A stretch of 35,288 nucleotides of DNA from Clostridia bacterium (GTDB taxonomy: Bacteria; Bacillota; DUOV01; Zhaonellaceae). Below are positions 8,549-31,479 of this stretch, in pieces; within the stretch, counting starts at the first letter, position 1, and each line of letters begins with the position of its first letter. A model generated the notes under the pieces. That model was not told where the DNA came from, searched no databases, and worked only from the letters and a program-made list of their open reading frames with translations. The translations under genes were made by a program, and so were the position numbers. The DNA lies in the NCBI GenBank assembly GCA_012838615.1, contig DUOV01000198.1, forward strand, positions 1 to 35,288, read 5' to 3'.

Positions 8549-8825
8549 GACTTTTCACCTCCCTTCGGACTAACGGCCCCTATATAAATAAGGGCAGGGT
8601 GTGGGTACTAGATAACCACTATTCAAAAATTATAACATTAGAAAAGTCTAATTACAAGAAAATGGTCTAGTTTTTCTAATAAAAAGAGCAATATTTTGTC
8701 TAGTTATAGCAATTTTATAATAGTCAAGGGTTTGGTTTATTCTGTAAAATTAACAATGAATGCTTAGGTTACGTTAAATTTTCCCCACTTTTTTTATTTT
8801 TAGATTTTCAGAAAGGAGCCTTTTG

Positions 8826-11800
8826 ATGAAAAAGAAAAGCCATTTAGCTCTAATTTCTGTTATGTTGCTGGTCTTATTTCTTATTACTTCTTCAGCAGGT
8901 GGTGTTAGCGCCAATGTTGATCCACCGGAAAATCTCCTAGATACATTTCCTTCTGACGAGGTAATTGACGAGTTAATTGTGGACACAACCCCACCCCAAT
9001 TCGGTTCGGAAGGAGTTTTGACTGTAACCAATCTTGATGCAACGAGTATTACTCTTGAGTGGAGTACTGCTGAGGATGATGTAGGGGTAATAGGGTATAA
9101 GCTTTTCCAAGACGGAGCAGAGGTGGCAACTTTAGAGGAAGGACAAACAGGCTATACTGTTACTGAACTTACAGAAAATACAGTCTATTTATTTAAAGTG
9201 GAGGCGGGAGATGGAGCAGGAAACTGGAGTACTGACGGCCCGGAAATAACTATAACTACACTAGCGGCACCTGACACTAAGCTACCGGAGACATCTGCCT
9301 CTGCTCCATCGGTGTGGGCAGAAGGCTATCCTGTGGCTACAGATATTACAGATCAAGGACTTACTCTTTTGCTTCAATCTACTGAGGAAAGAACTGCTTA
9401 CTACCTAATCTTAGAAGGCGAAGCCCAAGCGCCCAGTATAGAGCAAATCAAGGCCGGCCAGAAAAGTAATGGTGAACAACTGCCGGACAAGCGTGCCGGT
9501 TTCATTTCCTTGCCGGCTCATACTGAAATAAAAGTTGATATATCTGATCTGAATTCTGATACTTTCTACAGCATTTTTGTGGTTGCCTGTGATACAGATG
9601 GAAACTTACAGGAACTACCTGTTTGCTTGGAAGTTAGTACATTAGAAATGGAAGAAGAAAAAGAAGAAATATACGATGAAGATGTAACAGAAGAGATAGT
9701 AGCTGAAGAAATAATAGAAGAAGAAATAGCAATTGAAGATGAGACAGAAGTAACGGCATTAGAGGATACACTTCCGTTAGATATTCAGGCTTTAGATCTA
9801 CAAGCAATGATGGAAAATGCCAACATGGCAAATGTCAATGATGCAGGTGCCCCCGAAATCGAGTGGCTAAAAATCATTTCCGCTGAAGGGAAATTGTCTA
9901 AATCTAGTGAACCCAATAGCAACGATAAGGTATGTATATTAAATTCTTTGGACGGTGGTTATTACCTGGTAGGCAACTGCGACCAAGGAATCTACATCTT
10001 AAAAACAGACGCTGAAGGTAAGGTCTTAGCTAAGTATATTAAGGAACCAGATGCCCAACAGCGAATTGAAACTTACGCAGCTACCTTGTGCAGCGATGGG
10101 AGTATTGCCATCGTAGCATCAAAAGTCAAACTAGTTGTAGAGGGTAGTTTGGAGATGCTGCTGTTGAAAGTTAAATTTAACAAAGATCAAGAAAGTGAAG
10201 ATTTTATTGTTGATCAAAATTCCATAATAGAAAAAACTTTTCCATCTTCAACTGACCCGCTAAATGATTCTTACAACGACAGGGTAGGAAAATCAATAGT
10301 CCAGACTAGTGACGGTGGATATATTATTGCAGGCTGTGCTGCCCGTACTTTTACAGAGGCAGAACTTGATAATAGCCCTTGGTCGCGTCAAATAGTTAGA
10401 AATAGCAAATACTGTCAGCTTTTCTATCTAATGAAAGTTGACAGCCAATTTAATCTAATGTGGGAAAAGGTCTATTTTGACAATTTTATGTCTGATAATG
10501 TGGCAAGATCTTTTGATTCCAAAGCCCGATCAGTAAAGCAGGTTTCTGAGGGCGGCTTTATTGTACTAGGTGATGCGGGTTATTATTATCCTCCCCATAA
10601 CGGTGATAATTATCCTAAAAGCGGAGATTGTCTATTTAAAGTTAGTGAGGCGGGGGATTTAATATGGGCAGAGTTTCTAGAACAGTATAATGGTCCTTAC
10701 ATTGCTACAGCACCTGAGACTGTGTTGGAAACAAAAGATGGAGACTTTGTCAGCACCATATTTAAAGATCTAAGCTATGCTGAATTTTATGGCGGTTTAT
10801 ACAAGGTTGATAAGAATGGAAACAAACTCTGGGAAAAATATTATGCTCCTGAAAATGGGCGCTGGATTCCGGAGGCTTTACTGGAAACAGATGATGGCGG
10901 TTATATTGTTGCTGGGAGCATCTATTATGGTATACCGATTTGGAAACGCAATAGTCGTATAATAAAGGTTAGCAAATCCGGAACATTAATTTGGGAGTGC
11001 TACGGGCTAGGCGACCAATTTGGGGATGTGGAGAATAATGCCCATTCCATGGTTTTGACCGAAGATGGGGGAATTATTGTTGGCGGGTATTTGCAGACAC
11101 CTGAAAAAACTAAACCACCAGAGGCATTACTTGCTGGTGGGATAGTGCCTGCCGATACTGAGGTTACTTTTACCTCAGACACAAGTGGTGCAGATATATA
11201 TTATACAACGGATGGAACTGATCCCAATGTAAACAGTCAAAAAGGAAATTCAGTAACTATTAACGGAACACCTGGGGAAGTGGTAACGGTAAAGGCTTTG
11301 GCGGTAAAAGACGGGATGATGGAGAGTGATATAGCTACTTTTACCTATACGATAGCCAAACCTTCAGATTCAAACAAAGTGGCAGCTCCTACGGCAACAA
11401 TTGCTGGTGGGATAGTGCAGGACGAAACTGAGATCGCTCTTAACTCAGATACAGACGGTGCTGTCATATATTATACATTAGATGGTACAGAACCGAATGA
11501 AAAAAGTTTTAGTGGAAGTTATGCAGGTATCAGGGGCACACCGGGGGAAATCGTGACCCTAAAGGCCTTTGCGGCTAAAGATGGAATGATCGCCAGCGAC
11601 ATTGCCACTTTTACTTATACCATAGAGGCTCCCCAGGATGAAGTTAGTGAATATTCACCTTACCTGTTAAAACTCAGACCACCCTTAAATGTAAATGTGT
11701 CTGTAGTCTACAACAGCCAAAACAAGACTGTAGATATAAAGGCATCCGCCTATTGTAGCCAATGTGGTGGTATCTTAGATCGTACAAATACTACAACCGC

Positions 11801-14800
11801 TGTTTATCAGATAGTGGATGAGGGAGGTAACCCATTAGAATTAGATATTTCAGGTGACCTGGGTTGGAACCAGGAAAATGAACAATGGGAGGCCCTAAAT
11901 GTGAACCTCAGCCAGGTTATCTCTCAAGCTGCTGCCGTAGTGGTAACTTTTGAGGATAACAATCAGCATAGGGCAACAGCCCAAGGTGAGATTTATGCGG
12001 GAAATGCCAAATTAGGTCTTTCCACATATAACGTTATACCTGGTGGGAATGTATTTGTTTATGCAGCTTTTACTGATCTTGAAGGAGAAAATGCTCCAAG
12101 AAAAGGGGATTTAAGTGTAAGATTTGAAGGAGGTAGGGATAAGTTTGTACTTTCTGACAATGGTGAATTTGGAGACCTTGTTCCAGAAGATGGCATCTAC
12201 AGTAGTGAGTTTAGTATTTTAGGTAAGGGTTTCGTTGAAATAGAACTCTACCTGGGAAATACGTTAGTAGATAGTAAGATTATCAATGTAATAGATAAGC
12301 CGGAATTAGCAGTCATTACAGATTTTGATGCTCTTTACGCCGAATTTAAAGATACAGGCATGCAAGATGGGGAAGATATTGATGGAAACGGAACTGGAGA
12401 TTACTATGATCTTTTAGAATGTTTAGCCCAGTATGCCGAGGCCCATAAGGGAGTAGTCTTTAACTTGGACCAGGAGATTTCGAAAAATAATGGTTACAAA
12501 TATGACTATGATGCTCTTACCCACGCTGCCAGATATACAAAAGCCAGAGAGATTGATACCTTTATCAAAAATATTAGCCCAGGGGAAAGTATAAAAAACA
12601 TAGCAATTATCGGTGATGATGAAGTTGTACCTTTTGCCAGAAGGCTTGATCCCACCTACAATATAGACGGCGATAACAAGTATTGGGAACAAGAGTACTA
12701 TGATGATATGCGTGGCGGAGGGGATAATCCTACCATCCTAGACTCTCAAAAAGGTTATATCATGACTGACGTTCCTTACGGTTCTTACAGCGATCATAAC
12801 CCTGATTATAGCACCAGGCCCCATTTGGATGCCGGGGTAGGCAGGGTTTTTGCAGATAGACCCTTGCAGCTAAAAAATATTATTCTAGGCTATCAAGAAC
12901 CTATTCGTTTAACTAATGCGGCAGTATTCCAAATGGAAGAAGATACAATTGACTGGCTCAATTCGGCTAATAATACATTGCAGCCCGTTTTAAATGCTAA
13001 TTTTAAGATAGGTTTTGTAAATGACAGCAGCAACCCGGGATTTGAAACAGGAAAGTACTACTCATATGATCGGGTAAACTATCCTGCCGGCTGGACTCCT
13101 GCTGATGTAACTACTGCCCTGCAAAATGTCTGTTTAAATATGCTGTGGACCCATTGTGATCATCTGAGGGCTTTGACACGTAAGGATGGTCCCCTTAAAG
13201 CTGATCATCTTAGAAGCATGATAGAATCACCAGGTCATGTTTTAATCAGCACAGGATGCCATTCCGGATATTCCATTTCCCATGATTCACCTGAGGGAAA
13301 CTATGATTATTACAACAATAGTTTGGTAAAAAGTATTATAGAAAAACAGATTTCCTATATAGCTCCCACAGTTTATGGTATCGGTTTTAAAGACTATGTA
13401 GGCTATCATGATTTGATGATGCAAAGATTCTTAGAAAATCTGCTGGACACCTCCACTTCTACAGTAGGGGAAGCTCAGGTAAAAGCCTACCGTGAGTACT
13501 GGCAAAGAATCCAGCCCAATTTTGCAGGATATTTTAATGTTTATGCTGCTTACGGGACTTGTTATTATGGTCTGCCAACCCAGCCAATAGATCATATCGG
13601 TAGCGGATTTAGAACAACTGCAGCAAATAGCAAGCTAGCCACTTTTACTGCTGAAGCAAGTTCTGTTCCGTCCAAGATCGTGCTTGAACCTGAATTTAAG
13701 GTATCAGAACCCGCCGACGGTAAAACCCTTTTTGAAGCTCAGGGCGAAGGGAGTTTCAACCTGCAGGCATTTGCCCCGGTTATGCCTTTGATTACCAGAA
13801 AGATTACACTTCCGGCAGATACTATAATCAGGGAAGTAGATTTAGCAGCATTTTCTGCTTCTGAATTCCAGGAAGAAGTCATTTTACCTACTGCCATACC
13901 GGTCCATAAGTCCAGGGGAGCCCTTGAAGGCAGTTATGAGCTACCCGACACTTACCCCGAAACTATCTACTGGTGGGATACTTATGATGATGGTACCGGC
14001 CTGGAGTTGGTTCTTAGTGTCATACCAATGCAGTACAACAAAGACAGTAAAAAAGTGACTCTATATGATCGTTTGGAGTTTGAAATAATCACCGAAGCAA
14101 ATGAAGTTTGGACTTGGGGTTCTAATTGCTATGGCCAAATAGGCGATGGAACCAAAGATGACAAAACAGTACCAACAAAAATTGGAAGTGATGGCTGGAC
14201 AGCAGTTGCAGCCGGGGGCAGCCGTACTTTAGCTATAAAAGGAGATGGCTCCCTCTGGCTTTGGGGCGATGATGGCAGCGGAATGGAAAAAACCATACCC
14301 AGCCAAATTGGTAAGGACAAAGATTGGGCGACAGTTACGGCAGGGCCGTTCCACATTTTTGCCTTAAAGAAAAACGGCAGCCTGTGGATTTGGAATTCCA
14401 GTCAGTTAGATGATGGTACACCAAGAGTGCCGACCCAGATTGGCGAAGATTATGACTGGATCTTGGCTGCAGCAGGAGAATCCCATTTTGCAGCTTTAAA
14501 AGAGGACGGCAGTCTTTGGACCTGGGGAAGTAATTATGACGGACAGCTAGGGGATGGTACAAAAGAAAATAAAGTGGTACCAACAATGCTCGATGGTGAT
14601 AAGGATTGGGTAGCTGTGGCTACAGGAAGTAACCATACTTTAGCTATAAAATCCGACGGCAGCCTTTGGAGCTGGGGCAATAACTTTAACGGCCAGTTAG
14701 GTACTGGGGATAAGGAATACAGTTCTTCTCCAAGGAGAGTTGGTACCGAGAATAATTGGGCAAAAGTATTTGCTAATGACATGCGCTCCTTCGCTTTAAA

Positions 14801-16613
14801 AACCGACGGTTCCCTTTGGGCTTGGGGAGGCAATGTTGGTACAGATCCTATACTGACTCCGACCCAGATTGGTACTGAAGATGGTTGGAAAACAGTTGCT
14901 CCCGGAGACCGCCATGTTGTGGCGTTAAAGCTAGACGGAAGTCTTTGGGTCTGGGGTGAAAATTACGCTGGACAGTTGGGCGATGGTACAACAGAAGATA
15001 AGCTTATACCAACCTTAATTAGTAATGATTTAGCTTGGATAGGTATAGCCGCTGGCAGCGATCATTCAGTTGCAATAAAAGACCGTTCCACCGTATTGAG
15101 TGATGATGTAGCTACCGTAGCTATAGACAAGGCAGCTTTGACTTGGAATGTAATTAAAGGTGCAAACGCTACACAAAACAGCGTAACTACCAACTTGAAC
15201 CTAATAACTTCTGGAGCCAACGGCACAACTATCAGTTGGAGTATAAACCCAGACGAAGGCTTGATCAACACCGCTACCGGAGCAGTTACAAGGCCAAGTA
15301 ATAGCCAGGGAGATAAAACAGTAACTTTAACTGCAATTATAAGTAAAGGAGAGTTTAGTCAAACCAAACAGTTTGTACTGACCATCACAGCTCTTTCAAA
15401 GGGCAACCCAGAAGATCCAGGTGATAACGGTAGTGAGCCAAGGGGTGACGGACCAGGTAGCAGCAAAAAAGATAGGGTAAATGAAAATAAAGCAGTCGCT
15501 TATGACGAAAATAGCTTAAATGAAGCTTTCGAAAAGGCCACACCTGACGCTGATGGCAAGAAAATGATCAGCATCGAGCTGACCCAAGTACCGAATACCC
15601 AATTATTTAGAAATGAATTTCCTGCATCTGTCTTTACCTCAGAAAACGGAGACAGGTTGATTAAGTTAACTAGTGATGTGGGTACAATTGTCTTACCTTG
15701 CAATATGCTGGCAGGTACAGAGCTTGAAAGCAAGGATAATATAACTATTAGTATTAGTAAAGCAGAAAAAGCTAATCTTTCACAGGAAATGCAAAATATC
15801 ATCGGTGATAGGCCTATAATAGATTTAAATATCAGCCAGGGAAATCAAAAACTTACCTGGTATAACCCTAGTTCACCGGTAACCGTATCCGTACCCTACA
15901 CCCCTACACCGGAAGAATTGGCTAACCCTGAACATATTGTTGTATGGTATATTAATGAGGAAGGAAATGCGGTTGCCGTACCTAACGGTCGCTACAATAC
16001 TGACACCGGTATGGTGACCTTTACCACTACCCATTTCAGTCAATTTGCCATCGCCTATGTGCATAAGACCTTTAAGGATTTAGATAGGGTGCCCTGGGCC
16101 AAAAAAGCTATAGAGGTGATGGCATCTAAAGGAATCATAAGTGGTACCGGAGAGAACATCTACTCACCTACAGCTAACATTACGAGAGCAGATTACTTGG
16201 TACTGCTGGTAAAAACCATGGGGCTGTCAGCCGATTTTGATAATAATTTTGATGATGTAGAAGCAAGTGCCTATTATTATCAAGCCATCGGGATCGCTAA
16301 AAAACTTGGAATTGCCGCCGGAGATGAGAATAACCGCTTTAACCCTAGAGAGAACATTTCCAGGCAGGATATGATGGTTTTGACGGCCAAGGCACTAGAA
16401 AAGAAGGGTTTGGTGGATAGTGAAGTTTCGGCTTCCTTACTAAATAGATTTAATGACCAAAGAGATATTGCCCAATATGCGGTGCAAAGTGCTGCGACTC
16501 TGCTTAAGGAGGGACTTATAGCCGGTGACGGGGGTAAGCTAAGACCTCGTACACAAACAACCCGTGCCGAAGCAGCTGCATTTTTGTATAATATATATAA
16601 TAGATACGAATAA
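8826..16613 (+). CDS. Giant S-layer-anchored multidomain surface protein: signal peptide, FN3, acidic linker, DGGYIVAG propeller-like repeats, two chitobiase/HEX_C-like repeats, gingipain-like (peptidase C25-type) region, RCC1 repeats, Ig-like domain, three SLH domains
   Basis: Translation: N-terminal signal; VTNLDATSITLEWSTAEDDVGVIGYKL (FN3); DGGYIVAG repeats; ADIYYTTDGTDPN / AVIYYTLDGTEPN; LWTHCDH ... VLISTGCHSGYS; repeated GSLWxWGxNxxGQLGDGT; C-terminal SLH repeats. ATG at 8826 with gaaaggag SD (track starts at TTG 8823). Confidence 0.9.
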   Translation: MKKKSHLALISVMLLVLFLITSSAGGVSANVDPPENLLDTFPSDEVIDELIVDTTPPQFGSEGVLTVTNLDATSITLEWSTAEDDVGVIGYKLFQDGAEVATLEEGQTGYTVTELTENTVYLFKVEAGDGAGNWSTDGPEITITTLAAPDTKLPETSASAPSVWAEGYPVATDITDQGLTLLLQSTEERTAYYLILEGEAQAPSIEQIKAGQKSNGEQLPDKRAGFISLPAHTEIKVDISDLNSDTFYSIFVVACDTDGNLQELPVCLEVSTLEMEEEKEEIYDEDVTEEIVAEEIIEEEIAIEDETEVTALEDTLPLDIQALDLQAMMENANMANVNDAGAPEIEWLKIISAEGKLSKSSEPNSNDKVCILNSLDGGYYLVGNCDQGIYILKTDAEGKVLAKYIKEPDAQQRIETYAATLCSDGSIAIVASKVKLVVEGSLEMLLLKVKFNKDQESEDFIVDQNSIIEKTFPSSTDPLNDSYNDRVGKSIVQTSDGGYIIAGCAARTFTEAELDNSPWSRQIVRNSKYCQLFYLMKVDSQFNLMWEKVYFDNFMSDNVARSFDSKARSVKQVSEGGFIVLGDAGYYYPPHNGDNYPKSGDCLFKVSEAGDLIWAEFLEQYNGPYIATAPETVLETKDGDFVSTIFKDLSYAEFYGGLYKVDKNGNKLWEKYYAPENGRWIPEALLETDDGGYIVAGSIYYGIPIWKRNSRIIKVSKSGTLIWECYGLGDQFGDVENNAHSMVLTEDGGIIVGGYLQTPEKTKPPEALLAGGIVPADTEVTFTSDTSGADIYYTTDGTDPNVNSQKGNSVTINGTPGEVVTVKALAVKDGMMESDIATFTYTIAKPSDSNKVAAPTATIAGGIVQDETEIALNSDTDGAVIYYTLDGTEPNEKSFSGSYAGIRGTPGEIVTLKAFAAKDGMIASDIATFTYTIEAPQDEVSEYSPYLLKLRPPLNVNVSVVYNSQNKTVDIKASAYCSQCGGILDRTNTTTAVYQIVDEGGNPLELDISGDLGWNQENEQWEALNVNLSQVISQAAAVVVTFEDNNQHRATAQGEIYAGNAKLGLSTYNVIPGGNVFVYAAFTDLEGENAPRKGDLSVRFEGGRDKFVLSDNGEFGDLVPEDGIYSSEFSILGKGFVEIELYLGNTLVDSKIINVIDKPELAVITDFDALYAEFKDTGMQDGEDIDGNGTGDYYDLLECLAQYAEAHKGVVFNLDQEISKNNGYKYDYDALTHAARYTKAREIDTFIKNISPGESIKNIAIIGDDEVVPFARRLDPTYNIDGDNKYWEQEYYDDMRGGGDNPTILDSQKGYIMTDVPYGSYSDHNPDYSTRPHLDAGVGRVFADRPLQLKNIILGYQEPIRLTNAAVFQMEEDTIDWLNSANNTLQPVLNANFKIGFVNDSSNPGFETGKYYSYDRVNYPAGWTPADVTTALQNVCLNMLWTHCDHLRALTRKDGPLKADHLRSMIESPGHVLISTGCHSGYSISHDSPEGNYDYYNNSLVKSIIEKQISYIAPTVYGIGFKDYVGYHDLMMQRFLENLLDTSTSTVGEAQVKAYREYWQRIQPNFAGYFNVYAAYGTCYYGLPTQPIDHIGSGFRTTAANSKLATFTAEASSVPSKIVLEPEFKVSEPADGKTLFEAQGEGSFNLQAFAPVMPLITRKITLPADTIIREVDLAAFSASEFQEEVILPTAIPVHKSRGALEGSYELPDTYPETIYWWDTYDDGTGLELVLSVIPMQYNKDSKKVTLYDRLEFEIITEANEVWTWGSNCYGQIGDGTKDDKTVPTKIGSDGWTAVAAGGSRTLAIKGDGSLWLWGDDGSGMEKTIPSQIGKDKDWATVTAGPFHIFALKKNGSLWIWNSSQLDDGTPRVPTQIGEDYDWILAAAGESHFAALKEDGSLWTWGSNYDGQLGDGTKENKVVPTMLDGDKDWVAVATGSNHTLAIKSDGSLWSWGNNFNGQLGTGDKEYSSSPRRVGTENNWAKVFANDMRSFALKTDGSLWAWGGNVGTDPILTPTQIGTEDGWKTVAPGDRHVVALKLDGSLWVWGENYAGQLGDGTTEDKLIPTLISNDLAWIGIAAGSDHSVAIKDRSTVLSDDVATVAIDKAALTWNVIKGANATQNSVTTNLNLITSGANGTTISWSINPDEGLINTATGAVTRPSNSQGDKTVTLTAIISKGEFSQTKQFVLTITALSKGNPEDPGDNGSEPRGDGPGSSKKDRVNENKAVAYDENSLNEAFEKATPDADGKKMISIELTQVPNTQLFRNEFPASVFTSENGDRLIKLTSDVGTIVLPCNMLAGTELESKDNITISISKAEKANLSQEMQNIIGDRPIIDLNISQGNQKLTWYNPSSPVTVSVPYTPTPEELANPEHIVVWYINEEGNAVAVPNGRYNTDTGMVTFTTTHFSQFAIAYVHKTFKDLDRVPWAKKAIEVMASKGIISGTGENIYSPTANITRADYLVLLVKTMGLSADFDNNFDDVEASAYYYQAIGIAKKLGIAAGDENNRFNPRENISRQDMMVLTAKALEKKGLVDSEVSASLLNRFNDQRDIAQYAVQSAATLLKEGLIAGDGGKLRPRTQTTRAEAAAFLYNIYNRYE

Positions 16614-17077: not shown

Positions 17078-18334
17078 CTAATTCAGTTTAGAGACCCTTT
17101 CGTTATTATTCCACTTTTCTACTTTCTTGCCTACAGTAGTGGAGGGATCGATACCATCAATAATCTCTGCCTTTTCCACCCATTCCAGATAAGGCATGAA
17201 TAAAGGAAACTTTTCATTAATTTTACTTTCATTTAGGAAAGTATCAAAGCTTTCAATACCACAAGCTTCCAAGTAGGTAAGGTCAAAGAAGGATGCCATA
17301 TCCTTGACATAGGGTATTTTTTCTTCCGGTATGCCAAAGCTATACCAGAAATCTAAGTAATTTTGAATATTGGTTTCATCCACATGCCAAGATAAAGTAC
17401 GTCCTTCAGCATTGGTCTTGAGGAACATAGTACGAAGACCTACATCCGGGGATGTCCCAAAGTCATCAGCAAACATCATAGCTGCGTTGTATGGATGCTC
17501 ATACATATACTTAATGGCAAGACAGTGTGCCAGGACCAATCTAGTAGTCAATTCAGGGTGGGCATCGGCAAAATCCCTATTGATAAAGTATCCGCAGTGC
17601 AAGCCCCAGCCAGACTGTAGATCCTCCGAAATGTGCCCGCCCCACTCAACGCCGATTATCTTGCCAATGCCTTCTTCCTCAACTATTGAGGCATAGGGAT
17701 CACAGCACATAAAGCCATCGATCTGACCGGCTTTCAGAGCATACATCGCATCTTCTTGCTTCATATCAACGCCATCATAGAGGGTATAATCGGTCGGTAT
17801 GCCAACCTGTTCACAATAGCTTAACCAGTAAGGGGAATACATATCTTCCTCAGTAACGGTTATCCTTGCCCCTATTAATTCTTCAGCAGAAGTAATATCT
17901 TTTCTAACAACAAAATACTTAGAGCCTCCCAGGTGATTGTTTGCAGGCATAAATACAGGTGCTCCCTTGTTAGCAGCTTTTACCATCGAGCTAAAACCCG
18001 AATATCCGACTACCATATCTCCGGAGCCCATGGCAGCGGCAACCTGTCCAGTTTTAGTAACAACCACATTCAAGTCAAGTGCCTCGTATAAACCAGTAGC
18101 TTCACCGATAATGGCCGCGACCATGTGGTCACAGTCATAATAGCCCATTTGGATAACATAGTCCTTGTCTTCCTCGGGAATGTCCGGAAGATTATCGAGA
18201 TATGGTGCAATCTCTTCATAGGGATCATAATCAGTCTGGACAACATTTGTCTGCTGACCGCTATCTGCGCATCCGGTCAATGCTAGGAGCAGCATTAAAA
18301 TCACTAGTGAACCAGCAATTATTTCTTTTTTCAT
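17078..18334 (-). CDS. ABC transporter substrate-binding lipoprotein, SsuA/NMT1-like (ORF extends to 18349)
   Basis: Lipobox LLALTGCADS; NMT1-like ...GEATGLYEALDLNVVVTKTGQVAAAMGSGDMVVGYSGFSSMVKAANKGAPVF. Confidence 0.85.
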   Translation of the reverse strand: MKKEIIAGSLVILMLLLALTGCADSGQQTNVVQTDYDPYEEIAPYLDNLPDIPEEDKDYVIQMGYYDCDHMVAAIIGEATGLYEALDLNVVVTKTGQVAAAMGSGDMVVGYSGFSSMVKAANKGAPVFMPANNHLGGSKYFVVRKDITSAEELIGARITVTEEDMYSPYWLSYCEQVGIPTDYTLYDGVDMKQEDAMYALKAGQIDGFMCCDPYASIVEEEGIGKIIGVEWGGHISEDLQSGWGLHCGYFINRDFADAHPELTTRLVLAHCLAIKYMYEHPYNAAMMFADDFGTSPDVGLRTMFLKTNAEGRTLSWHVDETNIQNYLDFWYSFGIPEEKIPYVKDMASFFDLTYLEACGIESFDTFLNESKINEKFPLFMPYLEWVEKAEIIDGIDPSTTVGKKVEKWNNNERVSKLN

Positions 18335-18457
18335 AACACAACCTCCCATTTAAACTACCTTGTATACTTTCAAAAGCCTAGAAAACATGGATTTATCTAC
18401 ATTTTTTATTTCCTCACGGGAAATCGTCATTGCAACAAAATACGGAAAGCACACAGA

Positions 18458-19285
18458 TCACTTTTTCCACCTCAACAGGACTGATTCAAATAGAAGCAAA
18501 ATCCTGTCTTGTGCAAAACCAAAGACCCCGGCTAGGATCATAAAAGCTATAACCTTCTCGGTTAGCATCTCTAATTGTGCCTGCTTGATTAAAAATCCAA
18601 AACCCGAATTTGTTGCAATGAACTCAGCTCAGACAACGGACATCCATGCCGAACCCAGGGCAATTCGTACACCGGTAATAAGTCCTGAAAGAGAGCCAGG
18701 AAGTACCACATCGGTAACTAAATCTAAGAAGTTGGCACCCATACTGCGGGCTGCATTGTAAAAATCACTATCTATACTTTGCACCCCAGCCACCGTATTA
18801 AGGATGATTGTAAAAATTGCAGTAAACATAATGACGAAAATTGTTGGACCGTCACCTAATCCAAACCAGATTATAGCCAGTGGAACCCAGGAAGTCGTGG
18901 GAATCTGGCGAAGTGAGTTTATGAAGGGTGCCACGGTTTGCATTACTAAAGGTGAATAGCCCATCAACATCCCTAAGGGATATCCAAAGATTGCTCCATA
19001 AACCACTCCCGTAATCACACGACGCATTGTGATTCCGAAACTCCTCCAAACATGTAGGTCATAAAGTGCAGCAATTACTTCAGCTATGACGCTCTCCAGA
19101 TATGGGAATATAAAGGGTTGATCGATCAGATGCGCCGCAAAATACCAAATAGTAGCCAGAATTAAAAGAGCAATAGCGAAGGAATAATAGTAGTTTTCGC
19201 TAACCATGTTGCGAAAATTACGTCTGTCGGCCATCTTGGTTGCTTGCAGCATCCGATTTATATCTCTATCTGCTTTGTTTGCCAT
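18458..19285 (-). CDS. saoP: ABC transporter permease (SsuC/TauC-like) with in-frame UGA at 18629-18631, candidate selenoprotein (SaoP-like), 275 aa with readthrough
   Basis: ORF 18629-19285 stops at ...GVRIALGSAWMSVV; reading UGA as Sec continues U-AEFIATNSGFGFLIKQAQLEMLTEKVIAFMILAGVFGFAQDRILLLFESVLLRWKK*, the canonical C-terminus of this permease family. Confidence 0.75.
18604..18627 (-). promoter_or_regulatory. Candidate bacterial SECIS hairpin (permease), weak
   Basis: Minus strand: CTGAGTT-cattgcaaca-AATTCGG (7 bp incl. G-U pairs), beginning 2 nt after the UGA. Confidence 0.3.
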
Positions 19286-19295
19286 TATTTTTAGC

Positions 19296-20465
19296 TTATC
19301 TCCTTTCTATGACCATTTCCAGAAATGCCTCAATACGTGTGCGTATTTGTCCCTCATCACCTTTAGAAAAATCAGTTTCTATATGAAGATAAGGAGTATT
19401 GGTTTTTTTGGAGACTTTTTCGATATGATACGACTCAATACCAAACGGGAGGCAGGAGTGAAGTGTAATATTTATAAGACCCTCGACCTTCCATTCGGCG
19501 ATTGTTGCAGCGATCTGATCCATGCGCTTATGATTAGGAGACATTACCGCACATGGTACCTCTAGATATTTTTCTGCAATGCACACAAGGGGATCTCGAT
19601 CTTCAGATTCATCTACGAGGCGTCGGCGTGAAACGATGCCACTACAGCCCTCATAGCAAACAATTGCTCCCCCCAGCTCTTCAATAACAGCAATAACCTT
19701 GTCTACAACGCCTCCCAGTCCGGCCCCTGAGATCAAAATACGCGGTGGCTTTGCGCCGGGTTTGTAAGGACCATTGCCATTTTCCCAATTTTCTTCACAT
19801 TCATCCAAAATCTGTTTGAGTTTTTCATATTTCTCTTCTTTATTGAACATATACTGTTCGCCATCCATAACGTTGCGCATATCCAAGCCGGTAATGGCAG
19901 GTGGGTCATATTTGCCAAGCTCATAGATGCGGGCAGCCTGAATGCGCTCCTTATTGCACCACTTTATTGCTTCACGAAGTTTTTCATCTGTGATTTCAAC
20001 TCCAAAGCGTTCTTCCAAGGCTTCCTTAAAATGCTTGATTTCCATTACCCAGGCAGCTAATGAACGCTCTTTGTCCGGAACGTTAGGTAAATGAATTACT
20101 TGCATCGGTTTGAGCTTCCCCAGTAATTCATACATTTTCTTTTTCCCATCGCAGGTGGTTTCACCAACCACAAGGTCAGAAAAATAAGCATATGGACAGC
20201 TTTCTTCCAAGGCATGACCATAGCTGGCCTTGATAAGAGGACACAGATTGGCTGGCAAATGGGTCTCTGCTGCTGCTATTGGTTCGTTGCTTTTACCACA
20301 AAGACTGACTTTATATAGTCCGGCAGCGTAAATAACCTCTGCAGGAGCGTACTGACAAAAGCTGCCACAAATATTGGCACCGCTCTCCTTCAATTCCATG
20401 ACCTTTAAAAACCCGTTACGCCGAGCTTCCGCAAATTCATTAAAACGTTCAGGCAATGTCAGCAA
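19296..20465 (-). CDS. 2-hydroxyacyl-CoA dehydratase family / double-cubane cluster protein-like (paralogue 1)
   Basis: NLCPLIKASYG, SCPYAYFSDLVVGETTCDGKKKMYELLG; highly similar to the protein at 25567-26739. Confidence 0.88.
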   Translation of the reverse strand: MLTLPERFNEFAEARRNGFLKVMELKESGANICGSFCQYAPAEVIYAAGLYKVSLCGKSNEPIAAAETHLPANLCPLIKASYGHALEESCPYAYFSDLVVGETTCDGKKKMYELLGKLKPMQVIHLPNVPDKERSLAAWVMEIKHFKEALEERFGVEITDEKLREAIKWCNKERIQAARIYELGKYDPPAITGLDMRNVMDGEQYMFNKEEKYEKLKQILDECEENWENGNGPYKPGAKPPRILISGAGLGGVVDKVIAVIEELGGAIVCYEGCSGIVSRRRLVDESEDRDPLVCIAEKYLEVPCAVMSPNHKRMDQIAATIAEWKVEGLINITLHSCLPFGIESYHIEKVSKKTNTPYLHIETDFSKGDEGQIRTRIEAFLEMVIERR

Positions 20466-20570
20466 GTAATATCACTCCTCGAATCTTGTTTCACAACCCG
20501 ACTTAAATTTCCAGAAATCCACGCATTTTCTGTTCTTTTAAATCACGGGGTCTTGACTTTATTCCTTGAC

Positions 20571-20590
20571 ACTTTGCCAAAAGGCAAAGT
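20571..20590. promoter_or_regulatory. Perfect hairpin in the 20466-20645 intergenic gap
   Basis: ACTTTGCC-AAAA-GGCAAAGT; no clear U-tract on the minus strand, so a classical terminator is doubtful. Confidence 0.4.
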
Positions 20591-20645
20591 TAGATGATTT
20601 CCTGTACAGCATAATGTGTGCAGGTCTAAGTACTGCCCATATTCA

Positions 20646-20978
20646 CTAGAGGGTGATAACTTGATCAATGTTTGCTCCGCTTAGTGCAGCATACAAATTT
20701 GGGAAACAACCTATTCCTGCAGGTTCAATTAACTGGTCATCTATCTCCCTTTGATAACAGCATCTATCACAAGCCATCAGAAGCATTCCTGTCTTTTTGC
20801 TGATTGCAGACAGTCTCTTTGCAATATCACTATCCTTATGTAGCATATAAGTGTTATCAAAAAAGAACATCATGCCTGCTACTTCTGCCCCATGATTACC
20901 ATTCTCCAGTTGTGGAATAATCATGTTTTCAAGGATCTCTCTTGCGTAAACGGATTCAAATACATAAGCAACTCTCAT
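20646..20978 (-). CDS. saoD: DsrE-like small protein (SaoD-like)
   Basis: 110 aa; AYVFESVYAREILENMIIPQLENG..FFFDNTYMLHKDSDIAKRL..LLMACDRCCYQREI; DsrE/F-like layout. Confidence 0.65.
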   Translation of the reverse strand: MRVAYVFESVYAREILENMIIPQLENGNHGAEVAGMMFFFDNTYMLHKDSDIAKRLSAISKKTGMLLMACDRCCYQREIDDQLIEPAGIGCFPNLYAALSGANIDQVITL

Positions 20979-21024
20979 TTTTTATCTCCCTTTCTTTTTC
21001 ATAATTATTTAAAGAGTACAATCT

Positions 21025-21906
21025 TTAACAAGCAGAATATTCTTTGCCTTTATTTAGCATGGTTCTTACAACCTTGCTTTTATGCTCATTCTTTTGGATG
21101 AAGTCCAGTAGATCTTCGTCCTCTTCATTTTTAACCTCACCATCTAATGCTGATTTCAGCAATTCCGTCAGTTGTTTCATATAGCTATGATACTGTTCAC
21201 AGTTCCTATCTCTGGGTCGTAGCAAATCAACTTTAATATCGCCTAAAATCCTACCATGGTCCCTGGACATTATGAGAACCCTGTCACTTAAATAAATTGC
21301 CTCATCCACATCGTGGGTTACCATCAATGTGGTTACATTCTTTTTCTGTAAAATAGTCTCTAACTGGATTTGCAGCAGCTGCCTCATTTGAAAATCAACT
21401 GCCCCCAAAGGCTCATCCATAAGTAATATTTGAGGTTCACAGGCCAAGGCACGCAGCAAGGCAACTCTTTGCTTCATGCCGCCGGATAATTCATGAATAT
21501 AGCTATTTTCAGTACCCTCCAGCTGGGCCATCTCCAAAAGAGCTTTTAGCTTTTCCTTCCTGACTTTTTTGGGTATTTTCCTCTTTTTCATGGGATACAT
21601 AATGTTTTCGCCCACTTTCATCCAGGGAAAAAGAGCATAGTTTTGGAACACAAAAGCCCTGTCAGGACCTGGTTTGGTAACCTCCTTGCCGTTGATCAGT
21701 ATCTGTCCCCCATTATGTTTCTGAAAACCTGCTATAATAGTTAATGCTGTTGTCTTGCCACAACCGGAAGGACCAAGCAGGCTAACAAATTCCCCCTCCC
21801 CCACATCAAAGGAGATATCTTTTAATACAAGTTTACTTTTGTTTTTGTCTCTTTTGTTTTTAAATTCTTTGGTGAGCCCTCTAACAGCTATTGACATTTC
21901 ATCCAC
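21025..21906 (-). CDS. saoA: ABC transporter ATP-binding protein (SsuB/TauB-like; SaoA-like)
   Basis: GPSGCGKTT Walker A, ELSGGMKQRVALLRALA signature, LLMDEPLGAVD Walker B. Confidence 0.93.
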   Translation of the reverse strand: MDEMSIAVRGLTKEFKNKRDKNKSKLVLKDISFDVGEGEFVSLLGPSGCGKTTALTIIAGFQKHNGGQILINGKEVTKPGPDRAFVFQNYALFPWMKVGENIMYPMKKRKIPKKVRKEKLKALLEMAQLEGTENSYIHELSGGMKQRVALLRALACEPQILLMDEPLGAVDFQMRQLLQIQLETILQKKNVTTLMVTHDVDEAIYLSDRVLIMSRDHGRILGDIKVDLLRPRDRNCEQYHSYMKQLTELLKSALDGEVKNEEDEDLLDFIQKNEHKSKVVRTMLNKGKEYSAC

Positions 21907-21913
21907 CCCCTCA

Positions 21914-22711
21914 TCACAATTCTAAGAATTTTAAATTAACCATATCCCAAAATTCTTCTGTCATTCCCATGACAGAAATCAAGGTTTCTGTCTTATTCAG
22001 TTCTTCTACTGCTTTGTTATAACTTACAAGAAAGTTATTAAAAGCTTCTGTGCCGATTAAATCCTTTCTCACCACAAGGCTGTAGGAAATATAATCGTCT
22101 TTAGAAATCGGAGCAAAGTTATATTTCGGTAGCAGCACCGCTTTGCTTACATCAATTGCTGCAATATCTACCTGCTTGTTTTCTAAGGTATAGCCCAATG
22201 CTCCAATGACCATTTCTTTAATTTCCTTGAGATTTGGGTGGCTTTTTTGCGCTAACTCTGAGATATGTCTTCGATCCTGTCCTATTCCCAGCACTCGCTT
22301 ATCTGCAATGCTACCCTTATAAGCCAATACTTCTGAATTCATAATGATCGGCCCATAGATCACAAAACGATCATTTGTTTTGACCATATGCAGAGCTTTA
22401 TGACTACAGTAAAAGCCCATATCAATTTCGTCTGAGCTCAAGGCCCATTGAGATGTATTACTTCAGCAGTCTTGGAACTTGTAGGCCTCCATATCAAAAT
22501 CACTATAAACAATCCTCGTGTTACTACCTGCCTCGTGACTTGCTTCTACAATCTTTTCAAGCAGCAAACCACTTGTATCATCTCCTGCTCCAACACGTAA
22601 GACTTTTCCACTATCCCTTCTGCCGGTATCACTAGGCAGTAAGGATATTGTGAAAAAGCTAACAATCAGAGCTGTAGCCATGACCAAAAATATCCTTTTA
22701 TGTATACTCAT
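21914..22711 (-). CDS. saoB: ABC substrate-binding-like selenoprotein (SaoB-like), 265 aa with UGA 22463-22465 read as Sec
   Basis: ORFs 22463-22711 and 21914-22441 are in the same frame, separated by one TGA: ...DMEAYKFQDC-U-SNTSQWALSSDEIDMGFYCSHKALHM...; SECIS-like hairpin follows. Confidence 0.85.
22437..22452 (-). promoter_or_regulatory. Candidate bacterial SECIS hairpin (substrate-binding selenoprotein)
   Basis: Minus strand CTCAA-tgggcc-TTGAG; apical loop 16-21 nt downstream of the UGA. Confidence 0.6.
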
Positions 22712-22727
22712 CTTCTTCTCTCTCTAT

Positions 22728-23240
22728 CTAACAGCAGTCTTCCATGCCTTCTCCAAACAGATCCTTTATCTCACCATCTATCATGCGAAAAACTGCGTAG
22801 CCGACTGCGCCTTCTTTTTCACCAGAAATTATAAACTCCATCTCGGCCTCTTTGTCGATATTCTTGAACCGTATCTTCTGATTCTCTACAGGTGCCGGAA
22901 TCTCAGGGGATATATACCAATCCCCATCATCTTGGGCTATAAGTACAACTAGCCTCGTATGCTCATTTTCCCTGTATATGACCAGCAGATCCTGCAGTTG
23001 ATCATCAGTAATATCTTCCTCACAAGCCAAAACTACTTCTCTTTCAGGGAATTTCTCCCTAAAAAACTGTAAAGCTGGGTTATCATCTGCCACCATTGGT
23101 GCATAGTCTTTTCCTTCCATCCAGCCTTTATCTTCCTTGTTTACTGTTTTTTCGATGCCAATTATAAATTGCCTTGAAGCAAAAGCTATAAGCAAAACTA
23201 TAGTAATAAATAAAGTATTTTTGAGAAATTTTTTATTCAT
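22728..23240 (-). CDS. saoC: Membrane-anchored protein ending in Cys-Cys-COOH (SaoC-like)
   Basis: 170 aa; N-terminal TM FLKNTLFITIVLLIAFASRQF; extreme C-terminus ...GEGMEDCC*. Confidence 0.7.
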   Translation of the reverse strand: MNKKFLKNTLFITIVLLIAFASRQFIIGIEKTVNKEDKGWMEGKDYAPMVADDNPALQFFREKFPEREVVLACEEDITDDQLQDLLVIYRENEHTRLVVLIAQDDGDWYISPEIPAPVENQKIRFKNIDKEAEMEFIISGEKEGAVGYAVFRMIDGEIKDLFGEGMEDCC

Positions 23241-24352
23241 CTTTTCATAATTTCCCTAATAGGTAATCCTTTTGCTTTTTCCCCTTTTAGCTGCTTATAC
23301 AAGGCGTGCAAGGCGTAAGCTACCAAGATAGCCGAACATGTATATTGCAACCAGTCAGGTTGCACCATTATAAACTTATTGGCTGTATTGATTGTACGAG
23401 AGGTGGCATCATAATCCAAAATTGGTGTATAGCCCGGTACTAATAAAAGGTTTGTAATATACCCGGCAACATTAGATAAAACCGTAATTGTTACAAGGAA
23501 CATAAGCATTGCCCTTTTGCCGATAGTTTTATAGATAGTCAGAAGCTCAGGAATATTTGTCGCCGCTCCTGCCATAAGAAAGGTAATGGCAATCCCTGGT
23601 GACGCACCGCTAGCTACGAGAGCCGCAATCATTGGAATATGCCCTACAGCACACACATACATCAAGGCTGCTACAACAGTAATCCCAAAAAGAGTTATAA
23701 AACCAGGGTTCCCTAGATAATTCTGTATTATAGATTGGGGGACGCTGCCAATAATCACACCGGCTAGCAGAACACCGGAAACTGTATATTTAGATATGGT
23801 TACTGCCAATTCTGTAAATGACCATTTTAATCCATCTTTGATTTTCTCAAAATGAGTGGGTTCCTCAAAAATAAGTGTTTTTCTTTCGGTTTCATTAGGC
23901 AAGTCTTTTAAATGAAGCTCATCTCCGGCGAATTTATTGCCAATAATCCCGACAATTATCGGCATAATAAGCCCTGCAGCAATATTAATAATCGCAACTT
24001 CCTTACCCAATAATCCCCAGGTTAGGATAATAGCAACAGGATTAAGCACCGGTGTGGATGTCATAAAGGCTAGAGTGGGACCTAAATAAGCACCTGAATA
24101 ATATAAGCTAACACCCAAAGGAGTGCTGCCGCAGCTACAAATTGGTACAGCTGTACCGGCAAATGTTGTCCATAAAATACCTGAAAGTTTTGTGCTGCCG
24201 ATACTGCTTTTGCGCATCCTTTCTGGGTTTAGATAGGCACGTGCTATTCCTGCAGTACCAAAACTTACAACCATCCAGACGGAAGTGCTGTTCAGCATGT
24301 TGACAATAGTATAAAAAACATTGACTAGGAACTCCCCAAACTCTAGTATCAA
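23237..24352 (-). CDS. saoE: DUF318/ArsP_1-type permease (SaoE-like efflux transporter)
   Basis: Multi-TM; VPICSCGSTPLGVSLYYSGAYLGPTLAFMTSTPVLNPVAIILTWGLLG typical of the ArsP/YraQ permease family; 4-nt overlaps with both neighbours. Confidence 0.85.
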   Translation of the reverse strand: MILEFGEFLVNVFYTIVNMLNSTSVWMVVSFGTAGIARAYLNPERMRKSSIGSTKLSGILWTTFAGTAVPICSCGSTPLGVSLYYSGAYLGPTLAFMTSTPVLNPVAIILTWGLLGKEVAIINIAAGLIMPIIVGIIGNKFAGDELHLKDLPNETERKTLIFEEPTHFEKIKDGLKWSFTELAVTISKYTVSGVLLAGVIIGSVPQSIIQNYLGNPGFITLFGITVVAALMYVCAVGHIPMIAALVASGASPGIAITFLMAGAATNIPELLTIYKTIGKRAMLMFLVTITVLSNVAGYITNLLLVPGYTPILDYDATSRTINTANKFIMVQPDWLQYTCSAILVAYALHALYKQLKGEKAKGLPIREIMKR

Positions 24353-24603
24353 TTCTTTAATGCCTCCTGAAATGCGTTTCGTATCGCTTCCTTACTTAAC
24401 TTTGTTATTACCCTTGCTTCGTTGATTATAAGCATGCTCTTAGTAGTAGGCCCATATTTTTTGATATACTCGAAGTCTTTTCCGACTTTATAAATTTTTA
24501 CTTCAACTTGCCCCTTATATTGCTCTGCGAGAGATTGCACGAATTCTCCATATACTTCGCATCAGGCACAAGCACTGATGTATTCAATGCTAGGTTTATT
24601 CAT
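24349..24603 (-). CDS. saoT: Thioredoxin-like selenoprotein (SaoT-like), 84 aa with UGA 24562-24564 read as Sec
   Basis: MNKPSIEYISACAUCEVYGEFVQSLAEQYKGQVEVKIYKVGKDFEYIKKYGPTTKSMLIINEARVITKL...; strong SD aagggggg upstream of ATG 24603; thioredoxin-fold CxxC position reads C-A-U-C; ORF track gives only 24349-24540. Confidence 0.85.
24529..24548 (-). promoter_or_regulatory. Candidate bacterial SECIS hairpin (thioredoxin-like selenoprotein)
   Basis: Minus strand GAGAATT-cgtgc-AAT(C)TCTC, apical loop 21-25 nt after the UGA. Confidence 0.5.
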
Positions 24604-24794: not shown

Positions 24795-25562
24795 TTGTAT
24801 TTTACCGGAATTGATATTGGCTCAACCTCTGCTAAAGTCGTTGTGCTAAATGAAAATAAAGATTTGGTTTACAAAAATGTAATGCCAACCGGGTGGAACA
24901 GTCTGGAAACTGCTGAGAAAATAAGAAAGGAACTTGCAACAATTGGTGTCGATGAAGGAAATAGCAAGTTCGTAGCTACCGGCTACGGCCGAATTTCTGT
25001 TCCTTACGCTGATAAAAGCATCACAGAAATAACCTGTCACGGTAAAGGAGCAGCGTTTTTATTCGATGCAGATTGTTGTACTGTGATTGATATCGGAGGC
25101 CAGGATACAAAAATTATTTCAATTGCTCAAGGTCAGGTTTTGGATTTTATCATGAATGATAAGTGTTCTGCAGGTACGGGCCGTTTTTTAGAAATTATGG
25201 CCAACACATTGGGTATGAGCTTGATCGAGCTATGTGAGCTAGCCAAAACAGGCTCCGGTACAAATATCAGCTCCATGTGTACAGTTTTCGCCGAGTCTGA
25301 AGTAGTAAGCCTGATTGGTAGCGGTGAACCGAAGAAGAATATTGCCTATGGAATAGTAGAATCCATCACAAATAAGGTAAAATCCTTGTGCGGTAAACAT
25401 GCTAGCACAAGTACCCAGTTTTATCTGACCGGTGGCCTTTGCGAATGTGATTACATTATCGAATCTCTATCAGAAAAATTAGGTTCTAAAGTAATTTCTA
25501 GTCCTTTAGGTCGCTACGCCGGCGCTGTCGGAGCTGCCCTCTCGGCAAAATCCCTAAAATAA
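24795..25562 (+). CDS. 2-hydroxyacyl-CoA dehydratase activase / double-cubane protein reductase (HgdC/BcrAD ATPase family), TTG start
   Basis: GIDIGSTSAKVVVL, VIDIGGQDTKII, NDKCSAGTGRFLEIMA, SSMCTVFAESEVVSLI. Confidence 0.93.
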   Translation: MYFTGIDIGSTSAKVVVLNENKDLVYKNVMPTGWNSLETAEKIRKELATIGVDEGNSKFVATGYGRISVPYADKSITEITCHGKGAAFLFDADCCTVIDIGGQDTKIISIAQGQVLDFIMNDKCSAGTGRFLEIMANTLGMSLIELCELAKTGSGTNISSMCTVFAESEVVSLIGSGEPKKNIAYGIVESITNKVKSLCGKHASTSTQFYLTGGLCECDYIIESLSEKLGSKVISSPLGRYAGAVGAALSAKSLK

Positions 25563-25566
25563 TGTT

Positions 25567-26739
25567 ATGAGGTGTGCCATGTCAATAGATTTACCAGCTA
25601 AATTTGAAGAATTTGCAGATGCCCGCAGGCAAGGATTTTTGAAGGTAAAGGAGATAAAAGAAAAGGGTGGTAAGATAGCAGGGTATTTTTGCACTTTTAC
25701 TCCATTAGAAATCTTAGATGCAGTAGGCATTTACCCTGTGGGATTGTGTGGAATGAGCGAAGAAACTATAGTTGATGCCGAAACAGACCTTCCAAAAAAT
25801 CTATGCCCCTTGATCAAATCCAGTTACGGTTTTGCCTTAACCGAAAAATGCCCTTACACTTATTTTGCCGATATTATTATTGGCGAAACCACTTGCGACG
25901 GCAAAAAGAAAATGTATGAGCTTTTAGGTGAAATCAAGGATACATATGTTATGCAGCTACCTCAAGGGGTTGATAGAGAGTACGCTCCTATCATGTGGGA
26001 AAGGGAATTACATCGTTTGATTAAGACCCTGGAGGAAAAATTTCAAGTTGAAATCACGGAAGAAAAACTGAGAGCGGCGGCAGCACTTAGAAATAAGCAG
26101 CGAAAGAACTATAACGAGCTTTTTGAATTGGGCAAAATGGATCCTCCTCCAATCAAGGGCTATAATGTCTACAAGGTGATTGAAGGTTCAGGCTTTAGTT
26201 TTAGCGTAGAAGAAACCTGCCTAAGACTTCGTGAACTGATCGATAGCACCAAAGAAGCCTATGCAGCCGGCAACAGACCGGTTGCTGCGGGAGCAAAAAG
26301 AATACTGGTGACAGGCTGCCCCATAGGTGGGGTTCTGGACAAGGTTGTAAACACTATTGAAAGCAACGGCGGCGTAGTTGTGTGCTTTGAAAATTGTGGC
26401 GGTGTCAAGCCTGTAAGGCATCTGGTAGATGAAAATGCAGAAGATATTGTCAGGGCAATTGCTGACCGCTATTTGAAGATAGGTTGTTCTGTCATGTCAC
26501 CTAATGTAAGACGAATGGAAATGCTGCCTGAATTGCTTCAAGAATTTAAAATTGACGGTGTGATTGAAGTCATTTTACAAACTTGTCACCCCTATAGTGT
26601 AGAAACAAGAACAATCAAAAAGCTTGTTCACGACGCAGGACTACCTCACATGGCCATTGAAACAGACTATTCAAAATCCGACCTTGGCCAGCTTAAAACA
26701 AGAATATCGGCATTTCTAGAAATGAAACCTATCCGGTAG
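25567..26739 (+). CDS. 2-hydroxyacyl-CoA dehydratase family / double-cubane cluster protein-like (paralogue 2)
   Basis: NLCPLIKSSYG, KCPYTYFADIIIGETTCDGKKKMYELLG; adjacent to activase. Confidence 0.9.
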   Translation: MRCAMSIDLPAKFEEFADARRQGFLKVKEIKEKGGKIAGYFCTFTPLEILDAVGIYPVGLCGMSEETIVDAETDLPKNLCPLIKSSYGFALTEKCPYTYFADIIIGETTCDGKKKMYELLGEIKDTYVMQLPQGVDREYAPIMWERELHRLIKTLEEKFQVEITEEKLRAAAALRNKQRKNYNELFELGKMDPPPIKGYNVYKVIEGSGFSFSVEETCLRLRELIDSTKEAYAAGNRPVAAGAKRILVTGCPIGGVLDKVVNTIESNGGVVVCFENCGGVKPVRHLVDENAEDIVRAIADRYLKIGCSVMSPNVRRMEMLPELLQEFKIDGVIEVILQTCHPYSVETRTIKKLVHDAGLPHMAIETDYSKSDLGQLKTRISAFLEMKPIR

Positions 26740-30429: not shown

Positions 30430-31479
30430 TTATTCCCCCTTCACCATAATTTTTCCCGGATTGTCCTGGCTTGTATAGCCGATAATGAAGCCTTCGCCAC
30501 CTGATTCCTCTAACTTATCTAAGTAAAGTAAAGCATCCTTTTCAGATAAAGCTAAAAGCAAGCCTCCCGAAGTCTGAGGATCACATAAAATATCCTTGTC
30601 CTCCGGCTTGACTTTTGGATCCCAAATTATCTTGTCCTCCACATGGTCTAAGTTACGTCTTGCGCCGGCAGGCACAATTCCCATGGCTGTATACTCCTTA
30701 ATTCCAGTCAAAACCGGAACCTGCTCCAGATTTATGACAAAACTAACCTGACTTCCTGCTACCATTTCGTAGGCATGACCCAACAAACCAAAACCTGTTA
30801 CATCTGTACAAGCATGGACATGGAAAGCCTGAGCTACATCGGAAGCCACTTTATTAAGAGTCGTCATATTTTTAACTGCAGCTTTTTCTTCTTCCGAGCT
30901 GGCTAATTCCCCTTTAATAGCAGTAGAAATAATCCCGACTCCGATAGGCTTGGTCAATACTAAGACATCTCCAGGCTTAGCCCCCTGGTTAGCCCACACT
31001 TTTTGGGGGTGAACAATGCCGGTTACTGCCAAGCCAAACTTAGGCACATCATCTTCTACCGTATGACCTCCAACCAACAAAGTTTCGGCTTCTATAAGTT
31101 TATCAGCCCCGCCGGCTAGAATTTCCCGTAAAATGGATAAATCCATACAATTAGTAGGAAAAGTCGTTACATTCATGGCCGTGAGGGGTTTGGCTCCCAT
31201 GGCATAGACATCACTTAAACTGTTAGCAGCGGCAATTTGACCAAAAACATAGGGGTCGTCAACCATCGGTGTAAAAAAGTCTACTGTTTGCACCAGGGCA
31301 ATCTCAGGAGTCAATTGATAGACACCTGCATCGTCCATGGTTGAGCCACCGATTAAGAGCCGCGGGTCTTCAAACTTAGGTAGTGTTTCAAGAATGGCTG
31401 TAAGGGTCCCCGGACCCACTTTAGCTGCTCAGCCGGCAGCTTTAGCCGTTTGAGTCAGACGAACTTTATCTTCCATCAT
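30430..31479 (-). CDS. selD: Selenide, water dikinase SelD, itself a selenoprotein (UGA 31429-31431)
   Basis: Readthrough gives MMEDKVRLTQTAKAAG-U-AAKVGPGTLTAILETLP..., the expected SelD N-terminus with catalytic Cys/Sec; SD ggaggaga upstream; ORF track starts late at 31419. Confidence 0.96.
31404..31417 (-). promoter_or_regulatory. SECIS-like hairpin of selD
   Basis: Minus strand GGGTCCGGGGACCC 12-25 nt downstream of the UGA. Confidence 0.65.

Follow-up and report, generated by a model that had tools for sequence, protein, structure and literature searches.

Does an in-frame UGA codon in the gene of an ABC transporter permease mark a broken gene, or is it read as selenocysteine (Sec) within a transport segment? 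The question is raised by a locus in a 35,288-nucleotide stretch of DNA from a Clostridia bacterium, which is referred to here as the window. The locus belongs to the Sao systems, the name standing for selenocysteine-assisted organometal.

The permease gene and its surroundings

The gene occupies positions 18458 to 19285 on the minus strand. It starts with an ATG (19283-19285), runs for 275 codons by way of one UGA at 18629-18631 (codon 219, predicted to encode selenocysteine), continues in sense codons to K275 and ends at a TGA (18458-18460). An earlier, sequence-only reading had described an open reading frame of 18629-19285 that ends in ...SAWMSVV, which proved exact, and had proposed that readthrough restores the C-terminus of the family; translation through the UGA did yield U-AEFIATNSGFGFLI...LLRWKK. 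The product was recognized by the SaoP model NF040733 ('ABC_perm_U', cut-off 295) at 313.1 bits with a 272-residue reading as the query and at 314.7 bits in the genome search.

The remaining Sao genes (saoA, B, C, D, E, T and X) were all found above curated cut-offs within 17078-24603, on the same minus strand. These are saoX, a substrate-binding subunit (17078-18349; NF040735, 434 bits); saoD, a DsrE-related protein (20646-20978; NF040732, 188 bits against a cut-off of 169); saoA, the ATP-binding subunit (21025-21906; NF040729, 425 bits); saoB, a substrate-binding selenoprotein with a C-U motif (21914-22711; NF040727, 254 bits); saoC, a Cys-Cys-COOH protein (22728-23240; NF040734, 184 bits); saoE, an efflux transporter (23237-24352; NF040736, 510 bits); and saoT, a thioredoxin-like selenoprotein with a CAUC motif (24350-24603; NF040730, 109 bits against a cut-off of 65). 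Two further Sec-UGAs had been reported for the operon, and they lie in saoT (24562-24564) and saoB (22463-22465). A gene for a double-cubane-cluster anaerobic reductase is located inside the operon, also on the minus strand (19296-20465; NF040772, 472 bits). Divergent from the sao block, on the plus strand, are an activator ATPase of the 2-hydroxyacyl-CoA dehydratase activase type (24795-25562; TIGR00241, 236 bits) and a second double-cubane-cluster reductase (25567-26739; NF040772, 507 bits). Double-cubane genes occur beside or inside many sao loci.

Several other features of these loci were recorded. The Sec of SaoT is at the third motif position (CxUC) in the clade of the window and in L118, and at the first (UxxC) in Tissierella, C. 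difficile and others; the loci that define these alternatives are the window, L063, L067, L070, L096, L099, L101 and others. SaoX residue 216 is Cys in the window (C-C-DP) and is encoded by UGA in some relatives (L044, L050, L053, L055 and L057), in one of two tandem copies in L053 and in both in L044. Immediately after saoX, and on its strand, comes a small Se_S_carrier protein (PF11823, 16755-17024), a possible selenium-related partner. Positions 8823-16613 hold an open frame of 2596 residues with, as judged by eye, a repeat region and an S-layer-like C-terminus; its product is probably a secreted surface protein. The 'SaoB' that appears in a paper on Thermacetogenium denotes syntrophic acetate-oxidising bacteria and is unrelated to the Sao locus.

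Conservation and decoding of the UGA codon

The genomes of 84,980 species were scanned for related loci, which yielded 80 loci and 86 SaoP sequences besides that of the window. At column 219 the codon was UGA in 63 of the 86 and Cys (TGT or TGC) in 23, with no other codon represented. No further in-frame stop was present in the SaoP sequences examined, nor did the family have a second conserved Cys column, 219 being its sole conserved Cys/Sec position. The equivalent residue in 24 non-Sao permeases of the same superfamily was Ala (16), Val (5), Gly (2) or Ser (1, the second match of L099). The expectation of the sequence-only reading that Ala or another small residue is usual at this site therefore held for all 24 non-Sao permeases, but not for the SaoP orthologues, all of which have Cys or Sec. 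That reading had also named orthologues with neither Cys nor Sec as grounds for abandoning selenocysteine, which survived the comparison with all 86 sequences.

These counts bear directly on the simplest alternative, that one nonsense mutation, or an error in base calling, has truncated an ordinary permease and that the UGA is a true stop. The weak local hairpin described below is in keeping with such an event, as is the origin of the window in an assembly of 222 contigs. However, UGA is found in the same column of 63 sequences from independent assemblies, and the other 23 have Cys, one base removed from UGA, while none has the Ala of ordinary permeases.

Selection on the codons past the UGA argues in the same direction. 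In a quick maximum-likelihood tree of SaoP, built with column 219 left out, the window sequence fell with high support inside a clade of 40 rows, all with UGA. Its nearest neighbor was L039, a Lutispora metagenome-assembled genome (MAG), at 77% identity. Across the tree, the Sec and Cys labels switched at least four times by parsimony, with at least two of the switches forced by well-supported branches. When the window and L039 were compared over the 56 codons past the UGA, dN was 0.152 and dS 0.772 (dN/dS about 0.20), similar to the values for the 218 codons ahead of it (dN 0.156, dS 1.072). As dN is low relative to dS, the stretch of saoP beyond the UGA is kept as protein under purifying selection. 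We rejected a nonsense mutation because the UGA is retained throughout the 40-row clade, the downstream codons are under purifying selection and the Sec machinery is complete. The orthologue column and the dN/dS ratio exclude for practical purposes both a base-call error and a nonsense mutation, the latter being what the sequence-only reading had left as its alternative; we now consider either very improbable.

The genome has a tRNA-Sec (71.6 bits, UCA anticodon) and adjoining genes for SelB and SelA on contig 177, and SelD is encoded within the window. With tRNA-Sec, selA, selB and selD all present, the organism is, by its gene content, able to decode Sec-UGA. The selD gene is itself a selenoprotein gene, with a UGA (31429-31431) at the expected place, AGUAAKVGPG; the mechanically called open reading frame begins past this codon. 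Among 44 genome entries of SaoP carriers, some of them genomes entered twice, tRNA-Sec was present in 25 of 25 entries with UGA SaoP and in 17 of 19 with Cys SaoP. The full machinery also weighs against generic readthrough and against decoding of the UGA as a different residue such as Trp or Cys. These genes also use UGA as a normal stop, as at the end of saoP, and the only alternative residue in orthologues is Cys; we give this explanation almost no weight.

A weak SECIS-like hairpin with a G-first loop, AAATTCG-GGTTT-TGGATTT, is located at 18593-18611 on the minus strand. Its stem begins 17 nt past the UGA and its GG loop is at the expected place, but the predicted fold is only about -1.4 kcal/mol, which agrees with the weakness already noted from the sequence, and it is no more stable than synonymous shuffles (z +0.73). 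The hairpin at this place is much stronger in most SaoP orthologues, and in most UGA copies of saoP a good hairpin presents a G-first loop about 25 nt past the UGA. Mean z against synonymous shuffles was -1.33 for UGA copies and -0.38 for Cys copies, a contrast that is only indicative as the rows are related. The hairpin is likewise weak in the sister L039 and in several members of that sub-clade. An Rfam search of the window found no RNA element above gathering thresholds. Bacterial SECIS elements vary, and folding found no textbook hairpin after the Sec-UGAs of saoB and saoT either, so the hairpin, too weak in this copy to be taken as proof, does not outweigh the evidence from conservation.

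The UGA itself, the Cys/Sec-only column, the family assignment, the operon and the Sec machinery together indicate, with a probability of roughly 97%, that this is the saoP gene of a Sao ABC transporter, coding for its permease, with an in-frame UGA that encodes selenocysteine 219.

A possible role for Sec219 in transport

An AlphaFold model of SaoP (mean pLDDT 78.6, eight sequences) has residue 219 in a long predicted helix, 186-224, that follows the coupling region. This agrees with the earlier placement of the residue within a membrane helix, although position in the membrane is something we infer from the model. Residue 219 should lie close to the outer end of TM5, the fifth transmembrane helix. 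The best fold matches of the model were the permeases of CmpBCD and NrtBCD. A literature search found no NrtBCD structure papers that name pore residues. In the related spermidine importer, the substrate cavity is lined by TM3-TM5 and residues from the stretch between TM5 and TM6 join in the outer gate (PMC11414716).

CmpB is described as likely homodimeric (PMC13249358), and if SaoP dimerizes in the same way each transporter would have two Sec219 residues. By this analogy SaoP could plausibly work as a type I importer dimer with two Sec, each close to the outer end of TM5, an arrangement to which we give somewhat under even odds. Six loci of the Flavonifractor / Lawsonibacter group (L053, L058, L060, L064, L066 and L068) have a tandem pair of saoP genes, and in all six both copies have UGA at column 219, as expected if both halves of the permease need the residue. 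The tandem genes probably encode a heterodimeric permease with two Sec.

Our best guess is that Sec219 would act as a ligand for a soft metal or organometal near the outer gate, on the pore helix. The permease has no conserved chalcogen residue other than Sec219, so a metal coordinated by a pair of them, one from each subunit, would bridge both permease subunits. We tentatively suggest that each permease subunit contributes one selenolate, that the two may be opposed across the translocation path, and that a soft metal or organometal may be held by this pair as it passes through; the tandem UGA genes of the Flavonifractor group would then give heterodimers that keep the pair. Were this so, the pore of the transporter would itself be a selenium metal site. 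An organometal as the substrate of Sao systems is a published inference from gene neighborhood.

The main competing explanation accepts Sec219 as real but gives it a redox function: instead of binding a metal, it would form a diselenide or selenenylsulfide reversibly and so act as a switch or gate between subunits. A single conserved Cys/Sec per subunit, with no other conserved Cys, would allow an intersubunit bond, and thioredoxin-like SaoT with its CxUC motif and the double-cubane reductases at many Sao loci count in its favor. Residue 219 is nevertheless predicted to be within a membrane helix, the corresponding region serves as pore or outer gate in related importers, and the adjacent CC or CU pairs of several Sao proteins would seem suited to metal binding. 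A redox role is for these reasons unlikely in our view. Taken whole, saoP with Sec219 and the proposed dimer and metal mechanism is very probably the best explanation of the locus.

Relation to known transporters

SaoP (NF040733) is listed among prokaryotic selenoproteins in a 2026 review that cites Haft & Gwadz 2023, and the Sao operon is described there with six selenoprotein genes (PMC13188914). SaoP is thus already catalogued as a selenoprotein family, and the window locus adds a well-supported member to it, not a new family. The published Sec is most likely the residue of column 219, as no other in-frame stop occurs in the sequences of the family that were examined. A Sec in a transport helix, and not in a soluble redox site, is unusual. 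Since Cys or Sec at 219 is strict in every SaoP found, the role of Sec in a transporter could be tested cleanly at this one residue, as Sec, Cys or Ala. The locus is also a warning that such permeases are truncated by ordinary gene calling.

The window SaoP resembles known members of the family in its score above the curated NF040733 cut-off and in its Sao neighbors, and it shares the Cys/Sec column with the SaoP of C. difficile, Tissierella and Pelotomaculum. In its sub-lineage (Lutispora, Dorea, Tissierella, Flavonifractor) every copy found uses UGA, and saoP-saoX is often separate from the saoE-C-B-A block. The window locus differs from those of other SaoP in having a double-cubane reductase gene between saoD and saoP. 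TauC and SsuC permeases belong to the same superfamily as SaoP (BPD_transp_1), but SaoP scores far under the curated cut-offs of the TauC and SsuC models, and of the NrtB model as well. The nearest solved structures are those of NrtB and CmpB, from nitrate and bicarbonate importers (PDB 8w9m, 9u9z), which share the fold and helix order of SaoP; unlike SaoP, both have Ala at the Sec position and work with other substrate-binding and ATPase subunits.
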